64,000 nt of DNA from an uncultured Prevotellaceae bacterium. GTDB lineage: Bacteria > Bacteroidota > Bacteroidia > Bacteroidales > Bacteroidaceae. Below, one piece after another: positions 593 to 19,045 of this stretch (the first letter of the stretch is position 1; each line of letters opens with the position of its first letter). The DNA is taken from positions 1 through 64,000 of the forward strand of contig CAMVIM010000022.1 of assembly GCA_947167515.1 (NCBI GenBank), in the 5' to 3' direction. The position numbers and the translations under genes were made by a program. The notes under the pieces are model-generated. The model was not told the DNA's origin and searched no databases. It saw only the letters and a list, made by a program, of their open reading frames with translations.

Positions 593-883
593 CTATTGTT
601 CTGCATTGATCTCATTTTGTGCATATGTGATAGCATCGCTCTTTATCTCGTCCTCGTTTTCGACGGTGTCAAGAACCTTGTCTGCTAACCAAATGGTCAG
701 AAGTTCTTTCTCGTCTATCTCGAAGAGTTTTGCCATAATAGGGATTTGGCACCGTTTTGCCTTACGCTCGCCACGCTCTATCTTACTATACATAGGGGTA
801 TCAATTTCTAATGCTGCTGATAGCTGTCGCTGCAGCAGGCCATGCTCCTCTCTGAGCTCTTTTATTTTCTTTCCAAATATCAT
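593..883 (-). CDS. XRE-family helix-turn-helix transcriptional regulator
   Basis: 96 aa; KIKELREEHGLLQRQLSAALEIDTPMYSKIERGERKAKRCQI is a classic XRE HTH. Confidence 0.85.
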   Translation of the reverse strand: MIFGKKIKELREEHGLLQRQLSAALEIDTPMYSKIERGERKAKRCQIPIMAKLFEIDEKELLTIWLADKVLDTVENEDEIKSDAITYAQNEINAEQ

Positions 884-974
884 GTTCGTTTCTCTTTTCT
901 TATCTTACACTTCGACTAAATGTTCGACTAGAACTGGAGGAAAATGACTACTTTTACGAATAGAAGCCTTCAAC

Positions 975-1056
975 TAGTCATTTGCTAGTCGCTAATAGTC
1001 ATTTTTTAGTCATTTATTTGTCTACTAGTCATTCTTTAGTCATTTTCTAGTCATTT
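975..1056. repeat. array of TAGTCATT repeats at ~11-bp period
   Basis: TAGTC starts at 975, 986, 996, 1007, 1026, 1037, 1048; most followed by ATT. Confidence 0.8.
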
Positions 1057-2718
1057 ACATGCAAACCATAACTTTCCTCTAAGAACGACAGAGCCTTCAG
1101 TATTCATTTCACTAAGGATATTGCCAAGCAAACGAAGGTTTTGCTCTTGGCTATTTCTTTGGGGAAGTGCATCTTTGAGATAATCCAATAAGGAGTTCTT
1201 CTTTGTACCATCCTCCCCTGCATTCTGAATAAACTGTAAGGCCATCTGCTTGATCTTGTCGCGTTCAAGCCCTTTCACCTTGGTATATTCAGGCAATTGT
1301 TTCGTTTGCCTTGCAATGTTCAGGGATATGGTCAGGTCTGGATATTCACCCTCTACCAAACCGCGCTCCAAGAGATTCTTGGCATCACTTTCATTCAGTC
1401 TATGACCTTTCTGCACAGCATCAAGCAAGATGCAGTCTTCCAAAGACAAGTCTTTGTTCTCTTTCAGGAGCTTGGTGTACTTCTCATTGATGGCGTTTCC
1501 ATACAGACGGACGGCAACCTCCTTATTGGCAGCGTCAATCTCATAATCCGGCATGGGGAAATGCCGTTTCCACTGCTCATTGAATATCTTTCGGATGCCA
1601 CGACCAACGATGTCAATCATATTGAAGTTCACCATCGCATTGCAAAGACATTCATTGCGATAGTGTCGTTGTGGACCATGTGTTGCCAATGCCTTTTGCA
1701 GGGAGCCAGGGATAAAACTGCCTCCATTAGCGTAATACAGGAATCCTGGATTCTCCACCAGATTGATTCTCTCTTGCAGGGTATAGTCCTGATGTGCGAT
1801 GCAGTTATGAAGCACTTCGCGCATGGAATAGTCATCGTATTGCTGCATTACATCAGGGAACATCGTGCCGCCTGGCATCTCACGCATCGTCAGGTTATGC
1901 ACTTTGGCGAGTATCTGGTCAACTGTCAAGATAAATGGTGCCGTGAAGTGTTCATAGTCAACCACATCTTCGTGTTCATCACGTAGTGACCAAGTTACCC
2001 TCACTACAGCAGGACGGAGTTTGAACACAGAAACAGGCTTACCCAGCAGAATGATGGCAGCACGAGTGATTCCACCATCAATCATCACACCTGCATTACT
2101 CAAAAACTCCTCTACTGACCACGCATTCACCTCTGCTGCAGGAATACGGCTGTGCACCTTCTTGAACATCACCTTTGCTTTGGCAATGGCGACTTCATCC
2201 AAATCATCTATCGTAGCATTAGGCACGATTACGGCCGACCAGTCAGTATCTGTGAACAATGGCTCATCTAAGATGGCATTCAATCGTTCCTGTGTCAACT
2301 CCACCAAAGAGTCCTCTATCCGTTGCCATGCCTTATCGTGAGCATAGACAGGACGTTTGGGCTGATGTTTTGGAATACTAATCACCCACACCTTCTTCTT
2401 TGTGTCGTCTGTGACATACTCCTCGATGTCCAGTCCCTCGCTCGACAGATTCGTGCAGCGTTCCGTCAATCGGAGGATAGCCTTTTGGCGGTCATAGTTA
2501 TAGGTATCTGTGCCGACAATCTCCAGTGTCTTGTCATGCACACCCACCACAAGAAAACCACCCTCCATGTTGGCGATAGCCGACACGTAGGAAATCACAT
2601 CATCCTTCTCGTCCCCACAGAACGAGTTCTTCAGATTCTTAAATTCCTTCCACTCACACCGAGTATTCTCCTGTGGGAACTCGCGGAGCAGGTATTGTTG
2701 TAATTCGAGTTCGGTCAT
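1051..2718 (-). CDS. AlbA_2 (Schlafen-type) domain / RecG-like ATP-binding protein
   Basis: N-term TRCEWKEFKNLKNSFCGDEKDDVISYVSAIANMEGGFLVVGVHD matches the AlbA_2 pattern; central HATPase/RecG-like region (MREVLHNCIAHQDYTLQERINLVENPGFLYYANGGSF). Confidence 0.8.
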   Translation of the reverse strand: MTELELQQYLLREFPQENTRCEWKEFKNLKNSFCGDEKDDVISYVSAIANMEGGFLVVGVHDKTLEIVGTDTYNYDRQKAILRLTERCTNLSSEGLDIEEYVTDDTKKKVWVISIPKHQPKRPVYAHDKAWQRIEDSLVELTQERLNAILDEPLFTDTDWSAVIVPNATIDDLDEVAIAKAKVMFKKVHSRIPAAEVNAWSVEEFLSNAGVMIDGGITRAAIILLGKPVSVFKLRPAVVRVTWSLRDEHEDVVDYEHFTAPFILTVDQILAKVHNLTMREMPGGTMFPDVMQQYDDYSMREVLHNCIAHQDYTLQERINLVENPGFLYYANGGSFIPGSLQKALATHGPQRHYRNECLCNAMVNFNMIDIVGRGIRKIFNEQWKRHFPMPDYEIDAANKEVAVRLYGNAINEKYTKLLKENKDLSLEDCILLDAVQKGHRLNESDAKNLLERGLVEGEYPDLTISLNIARQTKQLPEYTKVKGLERDKIKQMALQFIQNAGEDGTKKNSLLDYLKDALPQRNSQEQNLRLLGNILSEMNTEGSVVLRGKLWFACK

Positions 2719-2721
2719 ATA

Positions 2722-3555
2722 TCAATAAAGGTCTTTGAAATTATAGTAGTTGTAGAACCTGTTATGCAAATTCTCTAGTAACTGTTGAATGTAATAAGCC
2801 ATTATTGACTTCGTTGAATCAGTAATGGGGATGTTTAATTGTTTTAACTGATTATCCACCAGACTAGAAATATTTCTATTGGGATTGAATGTTTCATCAA
2901 AAACGCTTTCAGCAGATAACGCTTGAAAAGGAGAATACCCATTATCATCCTTCACTTCATTTTGCAAAGCAGTGAGGGCCTGTGAAATATCTAGTAAATT
3001 GAAGTATTTATCGTAAAATGCAAGAAAGCCTCTACATATTTCGTCAGAAGTAACCTTTCTCGTTGTACAGATAAACGCTCTGTATGGAGCACGTTTTTCA
3101 GGATTTATCGCGGAAATCATGGCAATACTCTTACACATTGCCATCACCACAAATAATAAATGGCCTGTTTTAATATTGAGAGGTCTAATAATGTTGTAGA
3201 AATCCTTCCACTTAAGAATTTCTCCATTATTGAAACCGATACCTTCGTCATAGCCGTGGGTCTCGAGTTGTAGGGTAAGAATAGTCCCCTCCGACAATGA
3301 CTTTTCAATGTCCTGTACTGCCAAATGGAAATCATCTGAGGAATTGACATCATAAAAGGAAGAGAATGATTCTCGTTTATGATATTCTTTATATTGGAGA
3401 ACATCATGATACAGAATCTCTCCTGTTTTGACATCGTTGGGGTTAAGTGACTGCACCACGATAATACCCCATCGTTTAATCTCCGTATTAGGTTTATTCA
3501 TTGCTGAATGTTTTTTAACAGGATTGATGACAAGTAAACTTAAATTTTTTATCAA
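2722..3555 (-). CDS. putative caspase/CHAT-like cysteine protease
   Basis: LTLQLETHGYDEGIGFNNGEILKWKDF (candidate His) and GHLLFVVMAMCKSIAMI (candidate Cys) with CHAT/C14-like spacing. TTG start preceded by AGGAGGG; ATG at 3499-3501 also possible. Confidence 0.55.
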   Translation of the reverse strand: MIKNLSLLVINPVKKHSAMNKPNTEIKRWGIIVVQSLNPNDVKTGEILYHDVLQYKEYHKRESFSSFYDVNSSDDFHLAVQDIEKSLSEGTILTLQLETHGYDEGIGFNNGEILKWKDFYNIIRPLNIKTGHLLFVVMAMCKSIAMISAINPEKRAPYRAFICTTRKVTSDEICRGFLAFYDKYFNLLDISQALTALQNEVKDDNGYSPFQALSAESVFDETFNPNRNISSLVDNQLKQLNIPITDSTKSIMAYYIQQLLENLHNRFYNYYNFKDLY

Positions 3556-3556
3556 T

Positions 3557-6454
3557 TCATTCCCTCCTGATTATTTTGCAGCTCTCCATAAATGCTCCTT
3601 CTGCAATAATGGTTTGCTTTGGAACAACAACTGTTTTAAAACCACATAGTGTAAAAGCACCTTCTTCGATCTTTTCCAAAGAATCAGGCAAATAGATGTC
3701 TGTTAATTGCTTGCACCAAGAAAATGCATCTTTCTTTATTATTTTTACACCTTCTGGAATATGTATGTGATTAAGTTTCTCACAATCTTTAAATGTTTTC
3801 TCTTCTATCGTTTGTAAAGACGATGAAAGCTTGACATATTCTAGATTCTTACTATAGTCAAATGCAGATTCACCCAATTTTATGACAGAGTCTGGCATCT
3901 CAATTCTTTTTACATATGACCATGCAAAAGCCGACTTTCCTATTTCAACAATAATGTCGTTTAGTATTATTTGGCTTATGATTGTATGCTCAAAAGCTGA
4001 TTCTCCAATATAGATCACATGAGGGGGGAGTTTGACAGGACCACCCGAAGAAATTTCGTAGAAAGAAAATCTTCCAATTTCTTTAACAGTGGAAGGAAAG
4101 GTCATCGGCTTCTTGTCAACAATTCTATTTATGTCTTTAATAACCGATAATATCCTTGTTTTGGCTTTATCGTATAAAATGCCATCTTCTACACAGAATC
4201 TAGAAGAATTGCAAGAAAGATTGACATCGCAAGAAACAAAAGGATTTCCTGTAATTTTAATAACCGATGCAGGTATAGAAAATTTTCCAAGATCAGTTTG
4301 CCAGAATATGAAATTGCCAATGATTTTAACCGTATTTGGTAATATGATTTGCTTGTCTTTGGAACCATTTGAGAATGAATTGTCACAAAGAATCTCTACT
4401 CCTGACTTTATAGTATATTGTTCAAGATTATCCTCAAATGAAAGAAACTTTTTCCCATCTTTAGAATAAGAAGCTTCACCTCTATCCCATTCATCATGTT
4501 CTTCATTTTCAGCTTCGCCCCAATCAATAACTTTTTCGTCCCAATCTTCTTGAGTTATAACACTTAGACCATAGTCTTTCTTAAGATTCTCAATGTATTT
4601 TAAATCTTCTTTAGGAGGGGCTAAAATGTTATTCTTTTCAGAAGCATTAGCAATTGATTTCTTTTTGTCTTCGAGAACAAATATATTATGAAGTATTTCT
4701 TCCTCACTTATGCTCGTATCTTCTAATTCGATTATAAGATCTGATAGTTGTTTTGACAATTTACTCTGATAATATTTTAGTTGTCCTGCCGGGACAAAAA
4801 TCGCCTTCAAATTTTCACATCGGACGATGGCTGTAGGTTCTATAACACTTGTTTTGCCTTCAAAGATAATAGCGGTCAGATTCTTGCATGCAGAAATGGC
4901 ATTTTCTGCTAATGCTACAATAGAATTTGGCAGTTTAATCAGTTCTACTTCATTATGGCCGCTTATAGCACCGCGACCAATAATTCTAACTCCATTCGGA
5001 ATGATCTTTGTTTTCTTCTCTAAGTCTATATTTGCTACATATAATGTCTTGTCAACAGAAAGAAGTTCACCATCTGTTATTTTGAAATATGGTGTGTCGC
5101 AACAAACTTTATTATAATAGCCAAATGGAGCCCCAAAAGGATTGCCCGTAATATATTTTACAGATGATGGAATTGTCATATTATGTGGACTAAGGAACAT
5201 AAATGCATTGTTACCGATAGCATACACAGAATTAGGAATACTTATTGTATGTTCGAATCTGTTATTATAGTCATCATAAGCATTGTCACATATAATAAGT
5301 GTCCCAGGTCTCGGATTTATGTCAATTTTCTCATCCTTTCCACCTGCACCATTCCATGTTGACAGAAGTTTCTTTCCATCTGCACTATACATCTTTCTTG
5401 CAGCTAAGTCACGCATGACATCATTCGTTTCTGGTTTTTCTGTCAGAGCAAAAGTGGATCGATAATTTTTATATTCTGAAACATAATCTTTTTGGGGGGA
5501 AGTCGAATTTGACTCCAATTGGGATAAAATCTCCTCTGTCGTCTTTTTCTTCGGTGACCAAACAGGACGTATTGCCATTCCATGCCATCTCTGACCATTT
5601 TCTTTCGCTGACTTATTATCCTTGTTAAAAAAAAGATATTTTGCTTCATTGCGGTCGGAACTGGCAATTCCTGTCCAATAGAAACCAGCCTCGATTGATT
5701 TCTGTTCATCTACAACATTCTCACCTGTTACAGGCAAGAAGATAAAATTACCATTATGTCCTTTTACCTTATATCCATTAATTCCTTCAATGACAGTCCA
5801 TTCCCATTCGCATTTTTCTAAAAGCTCTTTTATTTCGTGCATTTGTGGCATTCGCCAATATTCTCCCCAAAGAAATGTAGCGGCATCAAAGTTTTTAATT
5901 GCGCATATTGACAGTTCATCATTCCCAAGAATTTTATTCAAATCCCAGGACCACTTTTCGTTCAGGAAACAATCCGCATATCGAAAAAGTGTTCTTTGGT
6001 ATTTATCACCCCATGCAAACTTTCCGCCCTTATCTCCAATAGTCTTTGCAAACAGATTTGTATCTGCCCACATAACAGAAAGACCAAGATCAACTTTATT
6101 CTTTTGCCTACTCTTCTCGTCATCAAGGACGGCTTGTTTCTTATCTTGAATAGCCTTTTCTTTGACTCTTATCTCTTCTTTTTCCTTTGCGGCAATCTTT
6201 CGTTTATATTCTGGATTCGCCTCAGGATTGAACCAGTAATATATCTTTGCACCAATGCCTAAAACAAACAATATAATAAATGCTAATATGATTAAACCAA
6301 CAAATAATAATATGCCATTTAGTGCTCTATCAGCACCTCCTGCAACAGCGTCATCATCGTAATAATCATATTGAGTTTGACTAAATAGAAGCACCTGATG
6401 TAATAATGCTATTATAATAGTGCAAAAACGTTTGATAAAAATCATGTTTTTCAT
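3557..6454 (-). CDS. membrane-anchored FISUMP-domain + BspA-type LRR_5 protein
   Basis: N-terminal hydrophobic segments; VDLGLSVMWADTN / EYWRMPQMHEIKELLEKCEWEW / GFYWTGIAS / RWHGMAIRPV (FISUMP); then many LRR_5-type repeats (SVKYITGNPF, TVKIIGNFIF, SAFEHTIISQI). Confidence 0.8.
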   Translation of the reverse strand: MKNMIFIKRFCTIIIALLHQVLLFSQTQYDYYDDDAVAGGADRALNGILLFVGLIILAFIILFVLGIGAKIYYWFNPEANPEYKRKIAAKEKEEIRVKEKAIQDKKQAVLDDEKSRQKNKVDLGLSVMWADTNLFAKTIGDKGGKFAWGDKYQRTLFRYADCFLNEKWSWDLNKILGNDELSICAIKNFDAATFLWGEYWRMPQMHEIKELLEKCEWEWTVIEGINGYKVKGHNGNFIFLPVTGENVVDEQKSIEAGFYWTGIASSDRNEAKYLFFNKDNKSAKENGQRWHGMAIRPVWSPKKKTTEEILSQLESNSTSPQKDYVSEYKNYRSTFALTEKPETNDVMRDLAARKMYSADGKKLLSTWNGAGGKDEKIDINPRPGTLIICDNAYDDYNNRFEHTISIPNSVYAIGNNAFMFLSPHNMTIPSSVKYITGNPFGAPFGYYNKVCCDTPYFKITDGELLSVDKTLYVANIDLEKKTKIIPNGVRIIGRGAISGHNEVELIKLPNSIVALAENAISACKNLTAIIFEGKTSVIEPTAIVRCENLKAIFVPAGQLKYYQSKLSKQLSDLIIELEDTSISEEEILHNIFVLEDKKKSIANASEKNNILAPPKEDLKYIENLKKDYGLSVITQEDWDEKVIDWGEAENEEHDEWDRGEASYSKDGKKFLSFEDNLEQYTIKSGVEILCDNSFSNGSKDKQIILPNTVKIIGNFIFWQTDLGKFSIPASVIKITGNPFVSCDVNLSCNSSRFCVEDGILYDKAKTRILSVIKDINRIVDKKPMTFPSTVKEIGRFSFYEISSGGPVKLPPHVIYIGESAFEHTIISQIILNDIIVEIGKSAFAWSYVKRIEMPDSVIKLGESAFDYSKNLEYVKLSSSLQTIEEKTFKDCEKLNHIHIPEGVKIIKKDAFSWCKQLTDIYLPDSLEKIEEGAFTLCGFKTVVVPKQTIIAEGAFMESCKIIRRE

Positions 6455-7263
6455 TCTTTATTCTCCTTTCTGTTTAATCTTGAATAAGTTTCCGAAAAAA
6501 GTTCATGTGGATAGTCATCCAAAATAATATCTTCAACATTAACATCCTGTACGGGGCTATCGGGTGGACATTTTGTAGTACAAACATAGCTGATAATGTC
6601 CTCTAAAAAACTATAATCGTTATCATTGAGTGAAAAAATGCCATAGTGATAAAAATCATTCAAGTCTCTGCTCTTATTTTGAATCATCCAAAAGAATAGG
6701 ATAATTCTTATTGATTCAGGAATAATGCATGACAATTCTGTTAGCCTTAGTTGTTTGTTTGCTTTTGACAAAGACTTATCATGAATGATGAAATTGATAC
6801 TTAGATGCGTGTATTGTATAAGATATTTTAGGCTATTGAGTTCTTCTGCAATAGTCGAATAATAATATATACAGACTTTTACGATTCTATCATATTGGTA
6901 ATCACTTAAACTAGAAAAAGGTTCCTTAAAATGGTCACATATTTTTGAATAAATAGAATCGAGTTGTGTTCGTTTATCTTCAGATAATGAACGTATTGTA
7001 TTAATCATTATAGCAACATGCTGCTCTGTTCTAGCTATCTCATTTGTATTTCTTTGCTCACGATACGTCACAAAAATGAAAGCAATAGATAGTATGCTCA
7101 CACAGATGGCAGCATAATTTCCAAACGCTCCCCAGTCTGAAGATTCTTTTGAAACATCTGCTCCCCAAAAACTTGCAAAATAGAAAAGTAAAAGAATAAT
7201 TACTATCCCAACGGCTGTAAATATAATTTTCCTATCAGACATATTGTTACTTACTTTATACAA
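6451..7263 (-). CDS. two-TM membrane protein resembling putative phage abortive infection protein (putAbiC-like)
   Basis: Two N-terminal hydrophobic helices with SSDWGAFGNYAAICVSILSIAFIFVTYREQRNTNEIAR between/after them; 4-bp overlap with the downstream gene. Confidence 0.5.
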   Translation of the reverse strand: MYKVSNNMSDRKIIFTAVGIVIILLLFYFASFWGADVSKESSDWGAFGNYAAICVSILSIAFIFVTYREQRNTNEIARTEQHVAIMINTIRSLSEDKRTQLDSIYSKICDHFKEPFSSLSDYQYDRIVKVCIYYYSTIAEELNSLKYLIQYTHLSINFIIHDKSLSKANKQLRLTELSCIIPESIRIILFFWMIQNKSRDLNDFYHYGIFSLNDNDYSFLEDIISYVCTTKCPPDSPVQDVNVEDIILDDYPHELFSETYSRLNRKENKE

Positions 7264-7720
7264 AATACTGTTGTTAAACTCTCAGACAATTTCAGCCTTA
7301 ACACCTCGTTATTGTAGAACTCAAACTGAAACTAAACTCACCCTCTGGTTCATAAACTTTCAGTTCTTGCAATTGAAATGAAGGGCAGAATCCGCATCAG
7401 CACCTTTTTACCGTTTTTTATTGATGGATTCTCTTTGCTTCATATTGTCATATAAATCAGCGTGGGCTTTCCTTGTTTGAGATTGTCATATTTTGGACAC
7501 AAAATTACAAATATAATTTAAAATAACATCAATGAATGGCAAAAATCAGTGTTTTTTAACGGGATTTATATCGGAAGCGTTTAAAAGCAGTCCCGGTTTA
7601 TCAGAAATCGCTACGAGAATCAGGGGACGTTCTTTGATCCGAAAGCAACACTTAGGGCTGAAGATAGAAGAAGGACTCCCCGAGAGTTAAAATGGATGGA
7701 ATAAAAAAGTTGGAGGAATA

Positions 7721-7910: not shown

Positions 7911-8401
7911 ATCATCTTGATATCGAACAACGAGTTGCAGAACAATATGCCAAAGAAACGGGCATGTGGATAACGATGGACGATGTTCTCGACTTGGGTG
8001 TGCCAGGGCCAAGTGGAAACGAAAATGACACCTATGTTTCAAACGATATCATTTATAAGGTGAACAACCTATTCAATACAGGTAGCATTCTTCGTTTGCT
8101 TGATAGAATAATATGGCATAATAATCTTTTTTATGAAACATCTTATAACTTGTACGGCTTTACAGGTTTTGAAGGTCGTACCATTATGCCAGTGCTGCAG
8201 CAACGATTGGTGAAAGATGCAGTCCCTGCTACAACTGTTGAGATTGAAACCTATATGGCTGCTATTGGATTCACTAAGCAGAATAATGAAGGTAGATATA
8301 CAAATGCAGAGTATGAAGTGTGGGATGTTGTTCCCCGCAATGTGTTGAGAGACAAGGATGGGGATATTTATGTGATTGATGCAGAAATGAAAAGATTGTA
8401 A
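7796..8401 (+). pseudogene. fragment of putative polyvalent protein kinase-like domain (mobile-element associated)
   Basis: Frame open upstream of the listed ORF (...VNHLDIEQRVAEQYAKETGMWITMDDVLDLGVPGPSGNENDTYVSNDIIYKVNNLFNTGSILRLLDRIIWHNNLF...PRNVLRDKDGDIYVIDAEMKRL); in-frame stop at 7793-7795 and no good start. Confidence 0.5.
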
Positions 8402-9205: not shown

Positions 9206-9275
9206 TACTTTTGTATCACGAGAACCCGCCAAGCCTCTCAACGATGCTTAAATCGGCGGGTCGTTTTATTTTTAT
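9206..9275 (+). other. -7 box followed by hairpin and T-tract (possible tiny RNA)
   Basis: TACTTTTG (9206-9213); ACCCGCC (9224-9230) / GGCGGGT (9255-9261) then cgttttattttt. Confidence 0.35.
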
Positions 9276-9573: not shown

Positions 9574-10545
9574 ATGAAAGAAAGATTACGAATTGTGAAG
9601 GAGAAGGTCAACGAAATTGACCCTCTTTGTTATGACCATCCTTTATATAAGGCGCTGTCGTCTCCTTGTTCCCATTACGAGAAAAAAGTCACTCCTTTCA
9701 AGCTGACGCATGAGCAGTTGCTGTATGTTTGCTTGTGGATTCTTGATTGTGTGCGGATCGGCAAGTGCAATACGAAGGAGGACTGCGATGGCATTTTCTA
9801 CCGTCTTTTCGGAGATTACAAGAAGTTGGCGCCTAAGCGCTGCACGAAGAAGAGCATTGCTTTCGCGGTGCTGGTTTCATTGAGAGCCGCCCTTTTCTGC
9901 TTGAAAGCTATACCGTCCCTGTATGATGTGGACTATGAGTGTTCTGTGGCTTGCCTGGAGGACACGATAGACCGTTATGGCAATGCGTACGATAACAGCC
10001 GGGAAAAATTAGAGGAGTTCTTCAAGGAGAATCAATATACTGACGGTGCTTTTTGGCGCAACAACTTTGTGCCTTTTCTCAAGCAGTACATGGAGGGTCA
10101 GAAGTCCATTTGGGAGGATATCAATGAGCAGTTGCATCTGGATGAGATGGATGGTATTAGCCGTGAGACAGAAGAAATGAAGAATCTGAAGGAAGAGAAG
10201 AAACGGCTTGAAAAGCGGGTGATGGAGTTGGAAGAAGAACTTGCCAAGGGGGAAGTGGAGAATTTGCGAGTGGGTGAACAGTTCAGAATTCGTCACCTTG
10301 TGATATTATTTGAGGCACTGCTGGGGAAGAGGGCTGTGCCAAGCGAGATGAATGTGAGCGATTTTGCCATGCTGCTGAGCATGGTGTCAGGCTATGGAAA
10401 TAAAAGCATCGACAATAAGATTCCGTCGGGAGGCTTGGACTACAAGAACTTGCGTGTTCAGAAACAAGCTGATGAAGTGATGAAGTATTTGAATAACGTG
10501 TCGCCCGATGCAGTAAAACAGATTGAGAAATTCAAGCAGGGCTGA
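9574..10545 (+). CDS. hypothetical protein with coiled coil
   Basis: 323 aa single frame; EEMKNLKEEKKRLEKRVMELEEELAKGEVE coiled coil. Confidence 0.7.
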   Translation: MKERLRIVKEKVNEIDPLCYDHPLYKALSSPCSHYEKKVTPFKLTHEQLLYVCLWILDCVRIGKCNTKEDCDGIFYRLFGDYKKLAPKRCTKKSIAFAVLVSLRAALFCLKAIPSLYDVDYECSVACLEDTIDRYGNAYDNSREKLEEFFKENQYTDGAFWRNNFVPFLKQYMEGQKSIWEDINEQLHLDEMDGISRETEEMKNLKEEKKRLEKRVMELEEELAKGEVENLRVGEQFRIRHLVILFEALLGKRAVPSEMNVSDFAMLLSMVSGYGNKSIDNKIPSGGLDYKNLRVQKQADEVMKYLNNVSPDAVKQIEKFKQG

Positions 10546-13735: not shown

Positions 13736-15331
13736 TTACCTTTTTGACACATCCGCCACGATGCGTTCCAATGCGATGACCAGACGGTCAACCTCTTCTT
13801 TGGTGTTATACACCGCAAAGGTGGGACGCACGGACATCTCGTAACCGAGGGCACGGAGGGCTGGTTGCGCACAGTGGTGTCCGGCACGCACGGCTATGCC
13901 CTCTTTGTCGAGCAACTGTCCCACCTGAGGGGCAGGAATGCCCGGAATGTCGAGCGAGATGACGCTGACACGCTTCTTGGGGTTGCCCATGATGGTGATG
14001 CCTGGGATGCGTGATATTTGCTGTCGAGCATACTCGGTGAGTTCATGCTCATGGCGTTCGATGTTGTGGATGCCCACACTCTGCACGAAGTCGAGCGCAT
14101 AACCCAACCCGATGGCATCGGCAATGTTAGGCGTTCCTGCTTCGAAGCGAGCTGGAGGCACGTTGAACTCGGTGTGCTCGATGGTCACATCCTTGATCAT
14201 GTTACCTCCACCTTGCCAAGGTGGGAGTTGTTCAAGCCACTCCTTCTTGCCATAGACCACCCCGATGCCCGAAGGCCCGTAAATCTTGTGGCCGGAGAAG
14301 ACGAAGAAGTCTGCGTCGAGTTGCTGTACATCCACCTTGGTGTGGGCGATGGACTGTGCACCATCGATGAGCACGGGGATGCCGTGGGCGTGGGCAGTGC
14401 GGATGATGCTTGCCACGTCGTTGATGGTGCCAAAAGTATTGTTCACATGACCTACGCTGACGAACTTGGTGCGGGGCGTGATGAGACGCTCCAATTCGCT
14501 GAGGATGAGGTCACCGTTCTTGTCGATAGGGATGGCGCGGAGTTCCGCCTTGCGTTCCCTGCTGATTTGCTGCCAAGGCACGATGTTGGCGTGGTGGTCG
14601 AGGGTGGAGACAATCACGTTGTCACCCTCTTCCAAGAACTTGCGTCCGAAAGTCTGTGCCACAAGGTTGATGCCCTCGGTGGTGCCACGCACAAAGAGGA
14701 TGTTCTCCTTGGCTGGGGCATTGATGAAACGCGCCACCTTCTCTCGTGCGCCCTCATACTGGTCGGTGCTTCGTGCTGCCAGCGTGTGTGCGCCTCGGTG
14801 GATGTTGGAGTAGTCCGTCTTGTAGAAGTGGCTCACTCCGTCAATGACCCTCAGAGGCTTCTGCGTGGTGGCACCATTGTCGAACCATACGAGGTCGTGT
14901 CCGTTCACCTTCTGATGCAGAATGGGGAACTGCTTGCGAATCTCGTCGGTGTTGACCGTGTCAGCCTCGTCGTAGTGGAGGTGCCGCACGATGTCCGTCT
15001 CTGGTATGCCAATGCCGAACCCGTTGTCAGTTGACAGTTGAGAGTCGAAAGTGGGCAGTTGGGCATCATCCGAAGAGGGCGCACTAGCAGGAGCAGACTG
15101 CCCCGATTGCAAGTCCTCGGCAAAGTACTTCTCCATCACTTTGCGGAAGAGGCACTGGTCAGCGGAACTCAGCCCACCAATCTGGGGTGCACCCCCTGCC
15201 AGGGAAGTGGCAGGAATGGGCAGTGATGACAAGTCCAACTCGTCTGGAGCCTCGTTCGGCACAGCCACCTGCGGCACTTGACCCCTATCCGGCAAGTCAA
15301 AATGGAAATTATCTAATTCGTTCAGATACAT
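13736..15331 (-). CDS. SufS-type cysteine desulfurase with long N-terminal extension (putative encapsulin cargo)
   Basis: Catalytic domain FPILHQKVNGHDLVWFDNGATTQKPLRVIDGVSHFYKTDYSNIHRGAHTLAARST...SGHKIYGPSGIGVVYGK...RAGHHCAQP; about 150-aa Pro/Ser/Ala-rich N-terminus. Confidence 0.95.
   Translation of the reverse strand: MYLNELDNFHFDLPDRGQVPQVAVPNEAPDELDLSSLPIPATSLAGGAPQIGGLSSADQCLFRKVMEKYFAEDLQSGQSAPASAPSSDDAQLPTFDSQLSTDNGFGIGIPETDIVRHLHYDEADTVNTDEIRKQFPILHQKVNGHDLVWFDNGATTQKPLRVIDGVSHFYKTDYSNIHRGAHTLAARSTDQYEGAREKVARFINAPAKENILFVRGTTEGINLVAQTFGRKFLEEGDNVIVSTLDHHANIVPWQQISRERKAELRAIPIDKNGDLILSELERLITPRTKFVSVGHVNNTFGTINDVASIIRTAHAHGIPVLIDGAQSIAHTKVDVQQLDADFFVFSGHKIYGPSGIGVVYGKKEWLEQLPPWQGGGNMIKDVTIEHTEFNVPPARFEAGTPNIADAIGLGYALDFVQSVGIHNIERHEHELTEYARQQISRIPGITIMGNPKKRVSVISLDIPGIPAPQVGQLLDKEGIAVRAGHHCAQPALRALGYEMSVRPTFAVYNTKEEVDRLVIALERIVADVSKR
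15027..15061. repeat. CAGTTGA-family heptad array inside the cysteine desulfurase N-terminal linker
   Basis: TCAGTTG ACAGTTG AGAGTCG AAAGTGG GCAGTTG; encodes LPTFDSQLST. Confidence 0.8.
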
Positions 15332-16771
15332 TTACTTCTCGATTTTGTTTCTGTGCTGATAATCGTGATAGTAGCCCACCTCCACATTCTCGAGGACTGC
15401 AATCGCATCGTCGGTGAGAGAAGCGAGGCTGAAATACTTGGTGAGCAGATAACTTGCCACGCCATACTGGTCAAGACCCATCAGACGTGCCGAGAGGCTT
15501 GGAGCGATTTCGCCAGGGATGCCAGCCTGATGCAGACCTACCACACCCTGCTCCTTCTCGCCTACACGAACAAGGATAATCTCTGTGGTGCCCACGCCAC
15601 GATTGGTCAGGTACTGACCCTTGATTTCCACCTTGTCAGATGGGATGATAGGCACACCACGCCAAGTGATGACTTTCGTGCCGAAGAGGTCGATGGACAC
15701 AGGTGGCACACCACGCCAAGTGCACTCACGCTCGAAGGCGGCGATGGCACGTGGGTTGGCAATGAAGAAAGCAGGCTCTTTCCACACGAGTGACAGGAGT
15801 TCATCGAGGTCGTCTGGTGTGGGTGAACCATAGCGAGTGCTGATCTTGTAACCAGGAGCAGCCTGAGCCAAGAGTCCGAACTTCTTGTTGTTGATGAGTT
15901 CCCACTCCTGACGCTCCTTGATGCTCTCGATGGAGAGGCGCAACTGCTGTTCCAACTGGTTGTAGGGAGCATTGTAGAGGTCGCTCACACGGGTGTGTAC
16001 ACGAACCACTGTCTGCAGGGTGTTGAGCGAGTACTCTGTCGGATTCTCCTCATAGTCAATATAGGTCTCTGGGATGACATTATCTTCCTCATGACCGCTC
16101 ACGAGGTCAATATGCTTCTCACCATGATCATTCACCGTCGCCTTCAGACGCAGGTGCTCATCGACAGCCTTGTTGAACTGCTCGCGGAAGTCGGGAATCT
16201 CCTCGATGAGTGACTCCAACACGGGGGTCTCCAATGCCAGGAACACTGAATCTGTCACGGCACGTACACTCACCGTAGAGTCTGCTGCACTCAGCAAGTC
16301 TGCCTCACCGAAGTACTCACCATCGCCCAAGAGTGCGATGCGCAGTTCCTCGCCATGAGTACCTGTGCTTATGACCTCAGCCTGTCCGTTTGCCACGATG
16401 AAGAACTTCTGCTTGTCCTTTCCCTGAGTGACGAGGTTCTTGCCACGAGCCAACTCTACAGGCACGAAATTGCGAGCCAAACGAGCCACAATCTCCTGCT
16501 TGATGTTCTGGAAGAGCGGAATGGCACGGAGATTCTTCGCCGTGAAACTGGGCACGCCATCGAAGTACTGAATCTCGATGCGTTCAGCCTTTTTCAGTTC
16601 CACCTTCGTACGGTTCACACGATAGGTGCCACTTTCCACCTGTGTCCAAGGAAGAAGTTTGAGGAGAAGTCTCGGTGTAATACTGCCCATCTGAGGGGCT
16701 GTCTTGGTGGTGTTCGCCAGTTTGCGAGCCGTTGCAGTCGTGATACTGCGCTGAATGTTGTTGTCTGCCAT
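15332..16771 (-). CDS. Family 2 encapsulin nanocompartment shell protein with cNMP-binding domain
   Basis: cNMP-binding domain (IPLFQNIKQEIVARLARNFVPVELARGKNLVTQGKDKQKFFIVANGQAEVISTGTHGEELRIALLGDGEYFGEADLL) plus SrpI-like shell region (YNQLEQQLRLSIESIKERQEWELINNKKFGLLAQAAPGYKISTRYGSPTPDDLDELLSLVWKEPAFFIANPRAIAAFERECTWRGVPP); next to a cysteine desulfurase. Confidence 0.88.
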   Translation of the reverse strand: MADNNIQRSITTATARKLANTTKTAPQMGSITPRLLLKLLPWTQVESGTYRVNRTKVELKKAERIEIQYFDGVPSFTAKNLRAIPLFQNIKQEIVARLARNFVPVELARGKNLVTQGKDKQKFFIVANGQAEVISTGTHGEELRIALLGDGEYFGEADLLSAADSTVSVRAVTDSVFLALETPVLESLIEEIPDFREQFNKAVDEHLRLKATVNDHGEKHIDLVSGHEEDNVIPETYIDYEENPTEYSLNTLQTVVRVHTRVSDLYNAPYNQLEQQLRLSIESIKERQEWELINNKKFGLLAQAAPGYKISTRYGSPTPDDLDELLSLVWKEPAFFIANPRAIAAFERECTWRGVPPVSIDLFGTKVITWRGVPIIPSDKVEIKGQYLTNRGVGTTEIILVRVGEKEQGVVGLHQAGIPGEIAPSLSARLMGLDQYGVASYLLTKYFSLASLTDDAIAVLENVEVGYYHDYQHRNKIEK

Positions 16772-16790: not shown

Positions 16791-17186
16791 TTATCTTAGT
16801 GTAATTTTCTCAGTTACTTCTCCCTCTGCGATGCGAAAAGCATTGAGCACAGGCTTCTCTTCTGCCAGCGAGAGGATGAAATAGAGGATGTTAGGGTCAT
16901 AAGCCAAGCGTTTGTCCTCTTCCGAAGGACGGGAGGGTGAAGCAGGATGGCTGTGCCAGTTGCCCACAATCTTCAAGCCCTGCTGACGGGCATATTTGAT
17001 GGCGGCAAACTGCTCCTTGGGGTCGAAACTGAAGTGCTCCTCCGAGTGGTCGATGTTGGTCATCGGGAAGTTCTCCGTAGCCGTTTCCTTGTCGGGACCC
17101 AGCAGATAACCGCACGACTCCACAGGGGCATCCTTCTGTGCTTGCGCCAAGATGGACTGATATGCCGATTCCGTGATAGTGACCAT
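16791..17186 (-). CDS. JAMM/Mov34 (M67-family) metallopeptidase
   Basis: PVESCGYLLG and GNWHSHPASPSRPSEEDKRLA JAMM motif. Confidence 0.9.
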   Translation of the reverse strand: MVTITESAYQSILAQAQKDAPVESCGYLLGPDKETATENFPMTNIDHSEEHFSFDPKEQFAAIKYARQQGLKIVGNWHSHPASPSRPSEEDKRLAYDPNILYFILSLAEEKPVLNAFRIAEGEVTEKITLR

Positions 17187-17410
17187 TACTTTTGTATTGT
17201 TACTTTGTGAACATTTCCTTCCACGTGTTCCACGGAGAGGACGTTGTAGCCCTGTTCCTTCGCCGAACGAGGCACATTCTCCAAAGGTTCCCCTTCTGTC
17301 AGGAGCACTTCAAGCGTGTCACCTGCTGCTATCTGCGCCAATTTGAGTTTGGTCTTTACGAAGGTCATGGGGCAATGTTCCTTCGTGATGTCAAGTGTAT
17401 GTATTGCCAT
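17186..17410 (-). CDS. TusA-like sulfurtransferase
   Basis: 74 aa; HCPMTFVKTKLKLAQIAAGDTLEVLLTEGEPLENVPRSAKEQGY. Confidence 0.85.
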   Translation of the reverse strand: MAIHTLDITKEHCPMTFVKTKLKLAQIAAGDTLEVLLTEGEPLENVPRSAKEQGYNVLSVEHVEGNVHKVTIQK

Positions 17411-17432
17411 AATGAAAGTGAAAAGTGAAAAA

Positions 17433-17912
17433 TTAAATAAACAAAGTCTGTCCTCCCTCGCTGAGGTTCAGGAATGAGGCTACACCGAGCACATCCTTCA
17501 CTTCGGGGATGAAATCTGTCTTTTCCAAACCGAGCACGTGCATCGCCATTTCGCAGGCATAGAGGTTCACACCCAATGCATTGGCTGCATCAACGAGTTC
17601 TTCGAGGGTAGCCACGTTGTTCTTACGCATCAGGGAGCGGAAGATTTGAGGGCCAATGCCAGCGAAGTTGAAGCGGCTGTTGGGGGCGACACTCAGTCCA
17701 CCCATCATGAAACCAAAGAGTTTCGTGAGCCAGTTACCACCCGTGAAACTGCGTCCACGCTTCTGCTTGATGGCATCCAAACCCCAGAAGGTGAAGAAGA
17801 TGTTGACTTCGTAGCCCACAGCGGCAGCACCTGTTGCCAGCGTGAAAACTGCTGTCAGTTTATCGAAGTCGCCAGAGAAGGCGATGAGTGAGAGTTTCTT
17901 TTGTTCTGCCAT
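17433..17912 (-). CDS. DsrE/DsrF-like protein
   Basis: MAEQKKLSLIAFSGDFDKLTAVFTLATGAAAVGYEVNIFFTFWGLDAIKQ...VNLYACEMAMHVLGL. Confidence 0.9.
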   Translation of the reverse strand: MAEQKKLSLIAFSGDFDKLTAVFTLATGAAAVGYEVNIFFTFWGLDAIKQKRGRSFTGGNWLTKLFGFMMGGLSVAPNSRFNFAGIGPQIFRSLMRKNNVATLEELVDAANALGVNLYACEMAMHVLGLEKTDFIPEVKDVLGVASFLNLSEGGQTLFI

Positions 17913-17919
17913 ATTCTTT

Positions 17920-18726
17920 TTATTTGTGTAGGTCGCAAGCAGCCTGTTCGTAATCAATGAGTTCTGTGATGGTTGGATTCGTGCCACAGATGGGGCATCG
18001 GTCTGTCTTCTTCACGTTGATCTTGCGGAAGTCCATCGTCTTGGCATTGAAGGTGAGCAACTTGTTGGTGAGCAGTTCGCCCACACCTGTCAGGTACTTC
18101 AACGTTTCTGCTGCCTGAATCGTGCCCAACATACCTGCAATGGCTCCCAACACACCTGCCTGACTGCACGTAGGCACGGCTCCTGGTGGGGGTGGTGTCT
18201 TAAACATACAACGGTAACAAGCTGTTCCTGGCACATGGGTGAAGGTTTGTCCCTCAAAACGGAGGATGCCACCATGACTGAAAGGTTTGCCAGCCATCAC
18301 ACAGGCATCGTTAATGAGGAACTTCACTGGGAAGTTGTCAGTACCATCCACCACAAAATCATACTCCTTCACGATGTCGAGGGCGTTGTCTGCCACCAGA
18401 AAATCACGATAAGTATTGACCTTCACATGAGGGTTGATGGCGTTGATGGTTTCTTTTGCCGACTCCACTTTCCACTTGTCCACATCGGGCGTGGTGTGGA
18501 TAATCTGACGCTGCAAGTTGCTCAAATCGACCACATCGCCATCCACAATGCCGATAGTGCCGACACCAGCCGCAGCCAGATACATCGCCACGGGAGCACC
18601 CAAGCCACCAGCACCGATGACGAGCACCTTGCCCTCACGGATTTTCTCCTGACCCTCTACACCTACATCCTGCAAAAGGATGTGGCGCGAATAGCGGTTC
18701 AGTTCTTCTTCGGTGAAATCAAACAT
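17920..18726 (-). CDS. ThiF/MoeB/HesA-family E1-like adenylyltransferase
   Basis: MFDFTEEELNRYSRHILLQDVGVEGQEKIREGKVLVIGAGGLGAPVAMYLAAAGVGTIGIVDGDVVDLSNLQRQI; CxxC zinc pair; strong AGGAGG before the ATG. Confidence 0.93.
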   Translation of the reverse strand: MFDFTEEELNRYSRHILLQDVGVEGQEKIREGKVLVIGAGGLGAPVAMYLAAAGVGTIGIVDGDVVDLSNLQRQIIHTTPDVDKWKVESAKETINAINPHVKVNTYRDFLVADNALDIVKEYDFVVDGTDNFPVKFLINDACVMAGKPFSHGGILRFEGQTFTHVPGTACYRCMFKTPPPPGAVPTCSQAGVLGAIAGMLGTIQAAETLKYLTGVGELLTNKLLTFNAKTMDFRKINVKKTDRCPICGTNPTITELIDYEQAACDLHK

Positions 18727-19045
18727 AACTGTCCTCCTTTGTGCTAAACGTCTGCCCGTTCGTCTTCGTTCCTCGACTCCGACCAGCCGAGCACTGCACC
18801 CCAAGCCTTCCGAATCGATACTCAATCGATTCCTTGTCTTGTCCTCCTCCCATGAAATAAAGGAAATCCACGGTGTCACCCTCATTCAGTTGAAGGGTGG
18901 CAAAGTCTTCTCTGTCCACGAACTCTTCGTTCACCTGCACACTCACCATATCGGGTTGTGCCACATTGTTCTGCTGAATCAAATCTGCTACAGTAGCAGG
19001 GAGTTGAACCTCTTGGTCTTCTCCATTTACAATCAATTTTGCCAT
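18719..19045 (-). CDS. ThiS/MoaD-like sulfur carrier protein with ~40-aa C-terminal tail after the GGG motif
   Basis: MAKLIVNGEDQEVQLPATVADLIQQNNVAQPDMVSVQVNEEFVDREDFATLQLNEGDTVDFLYFMGGG then QDKESIEYRFGRLG...; overlaps the ThiF-like start by 8 nt. Confidence 0.88.
   Translation of the reverse strand: MAKLIVNGEDQEVQLPATVADLIQQNNVAQPDMVSVQVNEEFVDREDFATLQLNEGDTVDFLYFMGGGQDKESIEYRFGRLGVQCSAGRSRGTKTNGQTFSTKEDSYV

Follow-up and report, generated by a model that had tools for sequence, protein, structure and literature searches.

A candidate mobile defence cassette in Prevotellaceae with a predicted caspase-fold protease and a Schlafen-type module

Introduction

A caspase fold with a His/Cys dyad is found in eukaryotic caspases and in the prokaryotic metacaspases and orthocaspases (Peptidase_C14) and also – in a defence context – in the SAVED-CHAT/PCaspase proteins of CBASS, in gRAMP-CHAT and in Borvo. 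Schlafen proteins bring a different activity into this field: the RNase triad of SLFN13 consists of E205, E210 and D248 (PMC5862951), and Schlafen-HATPase-wHTH relatives from loci of the BREX and BREX-related types are described as backup RNases (PMC12839542). Here we describe a locus that holds predicted proteins of both kinds. It lies in a 64,000-nucleotide stretch (the window) of contig CAMVIM010000022.1 (G000:C22), part of a 3.68-Mb Prevotellaceae assembly, and comprises five genes on the minus strand, encoding a membrane protein (MEM), a leucine-rich-repeat (LRR) protein, the protease, a Schlafen-type protein with an AlbA_2 domain and an XRE-family regulator. From sequence comparison and predicted structures we propose, with a probability of roughly 0.6, that these genes form a mobile, modular defence cassette in which a sensor–protease cargo is combined with a Schlafen-type module, and that its role is probably anti-phage.

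The protease and its relatives

By homology and structure prediction, the product of the 277-residue open reading frame (ORF) is a caspase-fold protease of clan CD. Its AlphaFold (AF2) model has a mean predicted local distance difference test score (pLDDT) of 87.8; searched against the PDB with Foldseek, it matches SAVED-CHAT 8tl0 first (E 4e-8), followed by CED-3, caspase-7 and MALT1 (E 4e-6 to 2e-5). In a profile alignment of 13 diverse homologs, reaching down to about 20% identity, His100–Gly101, Asn127, Cys141 and Ala156–Pro157 (numbered as in the ORF) are invariant in all 13. An initial annotation of the window, made from the sequence alone, had proposed a caspase-like protease on the strength of a His and a Cys motif; both motifs are real, the fold search supports the assignment and the predicted structure contains a caspase core.

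Searches with family profiles place the protein outside the curated collections: neither CHAT (PF12770) nor Peptidase_C14 matches it at E<=1, and no family in Pfam, NCBIfam or PADLOC covers it above cut-off. Weak matches to Peptidase_C13, a clan CD family, appear in seven of the 13 homologs (E 0.0012–0.035) and lie below the cut-off for the window protein. The gene is under purifying selection (dN/dS, the ratio of non-synonymous to synonymous divergence, 0.07–0.19) and rare, being present in 6/400 genomes of the family, 5/393 of the order and 11/396 of a phylum sample. Its true start is probably Met19 (position 3501), because the homologs begin there and residues 1–21 of the model are disordered.

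Distant homologs adjoin Hachiman, DISARM, prokaryotic Argonaute (pAgo) and restriction genes, and it is because of these neighbours that, on comparative grounds, we regard the protease as a defence-associated family. HamA and HamB (E 2e-86 and 0) adjoin the protease gene with a 1-nt overlap (L016; L numbers denote compared loci); DrmA and DrmB are co-directional with a homolog in L052; in L051 a pAgo gene (E 6e-253) is followed by two more genes, one of them SIR2-like by eye, and then by the protease; and a DpnII-type restriction–modification (R-M) system is separated from it by 16 nt in L018. A Dcm-type methylase lies several kilobases from the homolog in L053, and in L013 a WG-repeat protein and a Sel1-repeat protein with a trypsin-like N-terminus (by eye) stand directly upstream. 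These neighbourhoods bear out the defence context suggested at the outset.

Two observations on the relatives deserve separate mention. In L020 (3303-5294, minus strand), the protease domain is fused to a Ser/Thr kinase and transmembrane (TM) segments, as a single-chain version of the caspase module; the gene is flanked by a FISUMP-like and an AlbA_2 gene. Furthermore, otherwise unrelated proteins encoded upstream of the protease share a conserved acidic C-terminal tail, SYAQDEMGYSDDDIDTIFDGDPDAYWNID (L010:3631-3756, L014:7776-7901 and the end of L013:4802-5851), and a weaker tail of this kind marks a long protein encoded in another part of the genome from which the window comes (G000:C8:79755-79823); the tail is possibly an interaction or cleavage tag.

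Exchange of cargo between cassettes

Alignment of the window with related loci, many of which are contigs of metagenome-assembled genomes (MAGs), reveals a patchwork. Near-identical loci are held by the rumen MAGs RUG228 and RUG378. The window aligns with L008 over 669-7614, and the matches to L009, L011 and L012 likewise stop at 7614. Identity to L008 is 99–100% over about 2510-7460, which covers MEM, the LRR protein, the protease and the start of the AlbA_2 gene; elsewhere it is mostly 88–95% (up to 98%) for AlbA_2, 63–73% for XRE and 87% for the outer leader. Synonymous divergence (dS) between these two cassettes is 0.012 for MEM, 0.008 for the LRR gene and 0.026 for the protease, as against 0.40 for AlbA_2 and 1.17 for XRE. 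In the comparison with L012, the 98–99% stretch is limited to 2510-2960.

What fills the space behind the leader differs from cassette to cassette. L011 and L012 have only the 3' end of MEM left; their leader is 90.5% identical to the window's (7467-7614) despite the differing next genes, and their protease and AlbA_2 proteins are 90% and 98% identical, respectively. The LRR protein shares 67% of residues 1–60 with its L012 counterpart and 17–35% across the LRR parts, and in L010 and L014 the sensor slot is taken by an unrelated protein of about 1125 residues. Within the genus, the same leader recurs in L092 (87% over 67 bp, E 2e-17), where it precedes unrelated genes: one for an AbiP2 reverse transcriptase (E 1e-163), one that is TmtA-like and one that is helicase-like, followed by AlbA_2 (84%) and XRE. 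In L091 the leader is diverged (66%) and the cargo spans several genes, one of them for a UvrD-like protein, before AlbA_2 (89%) and XRE (87%). Across L008, L012, L014, L091 and L092, XRE is 62–87% identical to the window's. AlbA_2 relatives also end other operons of the genus, with R-M methylases in L096 and a candidate defence gene in L095.

These alignments are most simply read as one frame, made up of leader, cargo, AlbA_2 and XRE, whose cargo would be replaced by recombination. The initial annotation had named freely varying neighbours as grounds for refuting its own reading; the neighbours do vary, and in a structured way. The sensor slot differs between cassettes, the leader and the AlbA_2–XRE end are kept among close relatives, and the protease of distant genomes is a lone gene or lies next to other defence systems. 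Since L013 and L092 each carry one of the protease and the Schlafen-type protein without the other, the two are not strictly interdependent. No terminal repeats or integration sites were found at the cassette ends and no carriage of the protease in annotated phage records; a plasmid search returned two weak matches.

The Schlafen-type protein and its repeat array

The 555-residue protein matches SLFN_AlbA_2 above the Pfam cut-off (E 2.3e-12), and its acidic triad is conserved among the aligned relatives (E17 in 16/16, E22 in 16/16 and D62 in 19/20), with spacings of 5 and 40 residues against 5 and 38 in SLFN13. It keeps the Schlafen RNase triad and is a predicted RNase. The earlier mention of AlbA_2 proteins as frequent in defence loci names a confirmed domain and understates the case: the protein is of Schlafen type, and several cassettes that differ in cargo have it as their conserved 3' terminus. 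Residues 1–440 are nearly constant among the window, L091 and L092, and the last 110 or so diverge sharply; judged by these alignments, the C-terminal domain (about 440–555) is exchanged between relatives.

Overlooked in the initial annotation was an array of direct repeats at the stop codon of this gene. It contains six direct copies of AAATGACTA (one with a mismatch) and one inverted copy, spaced by 11/11/19/11/21 bp, in a tandem pattern unique in the 3.68-Mb assembly. Nearly every AlbA_2 relative has an array directly at the stop codon, with spacing of about 11 bp and a type-specific sequence: AAATGACTA in the window, L008 and L012, ATCCGACC in L091 and L099, TTCCGTCGAA in L092, L102 and L104, TTTAGTCGAA in L093–L095 and L105, and others elsewhere. 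An 8-mer that is present three times or more was counted in 14 of 20 non-redundant AlbA_2 tails, against 12 of 415 among the control tails (Fisher P 4e-15). L116, L117 and L118 also have near-perfect tandem repeats of 11 bp, which take in the AlbA_2 stop codon or lie closely 3' of it; the tail of L117 contains TAGTTATGTTT five times.

The type of array goes with the C-terminal domain in close relatives. In 19 pairs with a core identity of at least 0.70 – a subset picked after inspection of the data, with pairs that are not independent – the array is common to both members in 7/7 pairs whose last 60 residues are at least 0.77 identical (cosine 0.57–0.80), and not common in 12/12 pairs at or below 0.66 (cosine <=0.07); the window and L099 share 98% core identity and have different arrays. 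Over all AlbA_2 pairs, a rank-based partial Mantel test gave no significant correlation between C-terminal domain and array (p 0.10; core given C-terminal domain, p 0.003), because most pairs have no array in common. Tracking of the array with XRE was considered and rejected: the L091 XRE is 87% identical and its array is another one, and those of L008 and L012 are 63–66% identical with the same array. Nor was the AAATGACTA motif found in the leader, as an operator there, within one mismatch. We infer a putative binding of the C-terminal domain to its own array in cis. This pairing of domain and array is the most surprising element of the locus; the passages on BREX Schlafen proteins searched in PMC12839542 do not describe matched arrays, and no prior report of such arrays was found in a literature of which coverage was partial, which is weak evidence of novelty.

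The membrane protein and the candidate sensor

MEM has TM segments at residues 8–38 and 45–69 and belongs to no Pfam family. Its earlier description as putAbiC-like is rejected, as PF16872 is not detected even at E<=1; one relative (L058) does contain putAbiC, at 238–306 in its C-terminal part, outside the N-terminal membrane region that the two have in common (31%).

The LRR protein is built from a signal peptide, a TM segment, a basic linker, a FISUMP-like domain and two LRR_5 blocks. Its hydrophobic segments (4–25 and 40–75) enclose an acidic loop and are followed by a basic stretch; because the second TM segment precedes the basic linker, the LRR_5 blocks are predicted to lie in the cytoplasm. 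The proposal of a receptor with FISUMP and LRR_5 parts survives for the latter and for the role of candidate sensor, to which the swapping of sensors points, and FISUMP is seen below threshold only (Lcl_C, E 0.011 here and 4e-5 in an 870-residue counterpart).

Layout and surroundings

Positions are collected in the table below; those given for the ORFs in the initial annotation are all correct. The tight packing it noted holds for the called coordinates, with junctions of -4, +1 and +3 nt, except that the protease start was mis-called: a start at 3501 would widen the LRR–protease gap to about 55 nt. XRE, listed there as part of the operon, is present and lies outside the packed genes, 167 nt after the Schlafen-type gene. 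PADLOC returned zero matches for the protease and the LRR protein, and weak or generic ones for the other cassette proteins.

Beyond the leader, the Kinase-PolyVal gene adjoins the cassette and is possibly a mobile-element remnant. An abiF RNA further out is not followed by a recognisable AbiF gene, and the next ORF has a weak LmuB-like PADLOC match and none in Pfam. An aminotransferase and encapsulin pair, likely a known encapsulin system, has JAB-domain and ThiF-family genes downstream.

Table 1. Features of the cassette and of its surroundings in the window
Feature	Position	Strand	Basis
XRE-family regulator, last gene common to cassettes	593-883	-	HTH_3, E 1.7e-8
Array of AAATGACTA repeats	942-1056	-	begins at stop codon of Schlafen-type gene
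Schlafen-type protein, 555 residues: AlbA_2, HATPase_c_4, C-terminal domain	1051-2718	-	Pfam, triad
Predicted caspase-fold (clan CD) protease, from likely start Met19	2722-3501	-	fold, dyad, homologs
Candidate sensor, LRR protein, 965 residues	3557-6454	-	LRR_5, E 6e-61; hydrophobic segments
MEM, 270 residues: two N-terminal TM segments and cytosolic helical part	6451-7263	-	TM prediction
Conserved leader with Bacteroidales-type promoter TAnnTTTG	7264-7614	-	inter-cassette alignments
Kinase-PolyVal short protein	7964-8401	+	PF18762
abiF RNA	9225-9261	+	Rfam RF03085, 61 bits
ORF after abiF RNA	9574-10545		PADLOC
Aminotransferase class V (cysteine-desulfurase-like) beside SrpI-like Type 2A encapsulin shell with cNMP-binding domain	13736-16771	-	
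JAB-domain and ThiF-family genes	16791-18885	-	

Proposed mechanism and alternatives

Our model starts from what was computed here – the caspase fold and dyad, the exchange of cargo, the Schlafen triad and the array linked to the C-terminal domain – and we infer from it infection sensing, protease activity and substrates, DNA binding and an abortive outcome. Slot 1, behind the promoter leader, would hold exchangeable cargo, here MEM, the membrane-anchored sensor and the protease. An infection signal may bind the cytoplasmic LRR region of the receptor, which would then cluster or unlock the protease as its effector; once activated, the protease would cut host or partner proteins and bring about growth arrest and abortive infection. 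In slot 2, the Schlafen-type protein – a predicted RNase with a GHKL-like and a putative C-terminal DNA-binding domain – would bind the array of about 11-bp repeats in cis and regulate its own gene, act as a further effector by its RNase activity, or do both, with XRE as a putative co-regulator.

Bacteroidales LRR_5 proteins are usually surface proteins, and the LRR protein has an N-terminal signal-like segment, so it could be an ordinary BspA-type adhesin that precedes an unrelated protease by chance. We consider this very improbable: the second TM segment and basic linker predict cytoplasmic LRRs, the gene overlaps or closely abuts its neighbours, L011 and L012 place an LRR protein (33% identity) before a 90% identical protease, and other large proteins fill the slot in L010, L013 and L014. 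Decidedly improbable, too, is a stress or developmental cell-death operon with no link to invaders, whose LRR protein would detect stress, either proteotoxic or of the envelope, and whose protease would remodel the cell; the membrane anchors of sensor and MEM, the location of the distant homologs L030 and L049 among ordinary genes and the reported ties of cyanobacterial caspase homologs to stress would suit it, but the patchy distribution in family and phylum, the recent transfer, the sensor swapping and the defence neighbours would not. Conflict among mobile elements in place of phage defence (exclusion of plasmids, of integrative and conjugative elements (ICEs) or of prophages, or addiction), with the protease cutting an antitoxin or the Schlafen-type partner when a competitor enters, fits the different chromosomal sites of the cassette in close relatives, the serine recombinase or ICE-like genes near L015 and L028, the Kinase-PolyVal gene beside the window copy and the reported cutting of an antitoxin by the cyanobacterial caspase homolog MaOC1 (PMC7935541). 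Yet Hachiman, DISARM, pAgo, AbiP2 and R-M systems recur beside the protease or within the same frame, and we judge such a conflict unlikely.

For the AlbA_2 protein alone, a purely transcriptional role – a COG2865-like autoregulator, no RNase effector, with the array as its operator – is a serious contender, somewhat short of an even bet. The linkage of C-terminal domain and array, the helical spacing and the position of the array between AlbA_2 and XRE speak for it; against it stand the conserved triad with Schlafen-like spacing, the relatives described as BREX or BREX-related backup RNases (PMC12839542) and loci in which the array has no XRE after it. Quite unlikely, in our estimate, is a self-addressed tether, in which exchangeable DNA-address domains would hold the Schlafen RNase at its private array of about 11-bp repeats until disturbance of the tether or release by the sensor and caspase triggers RNA cleavage; if it were true, the defence cargos would be alternative triggers of one common effector.

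Several points weigh against a modular defence cassette as proposed here. When 116 neighbour proteins were compared with 131 controls drawn at random from those genomes (PADLOC at 1e-20), 104 and 50 families were matched, respectively; this enrichment is moderate only, since a number of families is not a number of loci and some of the control matches are probably housekeeping helicases or polymerases. Protease homologs in L030, L049 and L054 are solitary, without a recognisable partner; the AF2 model of the LRR protein is poor (pLDDT 54); L010 is filed under Pseudobutyrivibrio, so that MAG contigs may be mis-binned; and cleavage of the Schlafen-type protein by the protease is no more than a candidate idea.

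Should the modular defence cassette hold true, Bacteroidales defence genes would be swapped as cargo inside a standard frame, and a caspase-fold family missing from the searched curated libraries would serve many defence systems as an accessory. The match of domain and array would offer a handle on the targets and the inactive state of the widespread bacterial Schlafen-HATPase-wHTH proteins, and a repeat array at a stop codon could serve as a search rule for further cassettes.

Comparison with known systems

The window's protease has its fold, dyad and defence context in common with SAVED-CHAT/PCaspase, gRAMP-CHAT and Borvo, but lacks a SAVED domain, a CRISPR component and a match to CHAT; unlike CHAT effectors, it is a stand-alone protein of about 259 residues with sensor genes upstream. 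With eukaryotic caspases, metacaspases and orthocaspases it shares fold and dyad, although it has no Peptidase_C14 match and its similarity to Peptidase_C13 is weak. The CATRA caspase-dependent ternary conflict systems (PMC8195603) are likewise predicted caspase-dependent conflict systems; their defining parts were not identified at this locus, where no test aimed at them was made. A 3' AlbA_2 gene also marks the AbiP2 (L092) and R-M (L096) systems – in L092 together with leader and XRE – but these carry other cargo and no protease. Finally, the BREX backup Schlafen RNases (PMC12839542) show the domain order of the window protein (AlbA_2, HATPase_c_4 and a DNA-binding-like C-terminus) and its acidic triad; the window protein differs from them by its place in a non-BREX cassette, its swappable C-terminal domain and the matched array at its stop codon.

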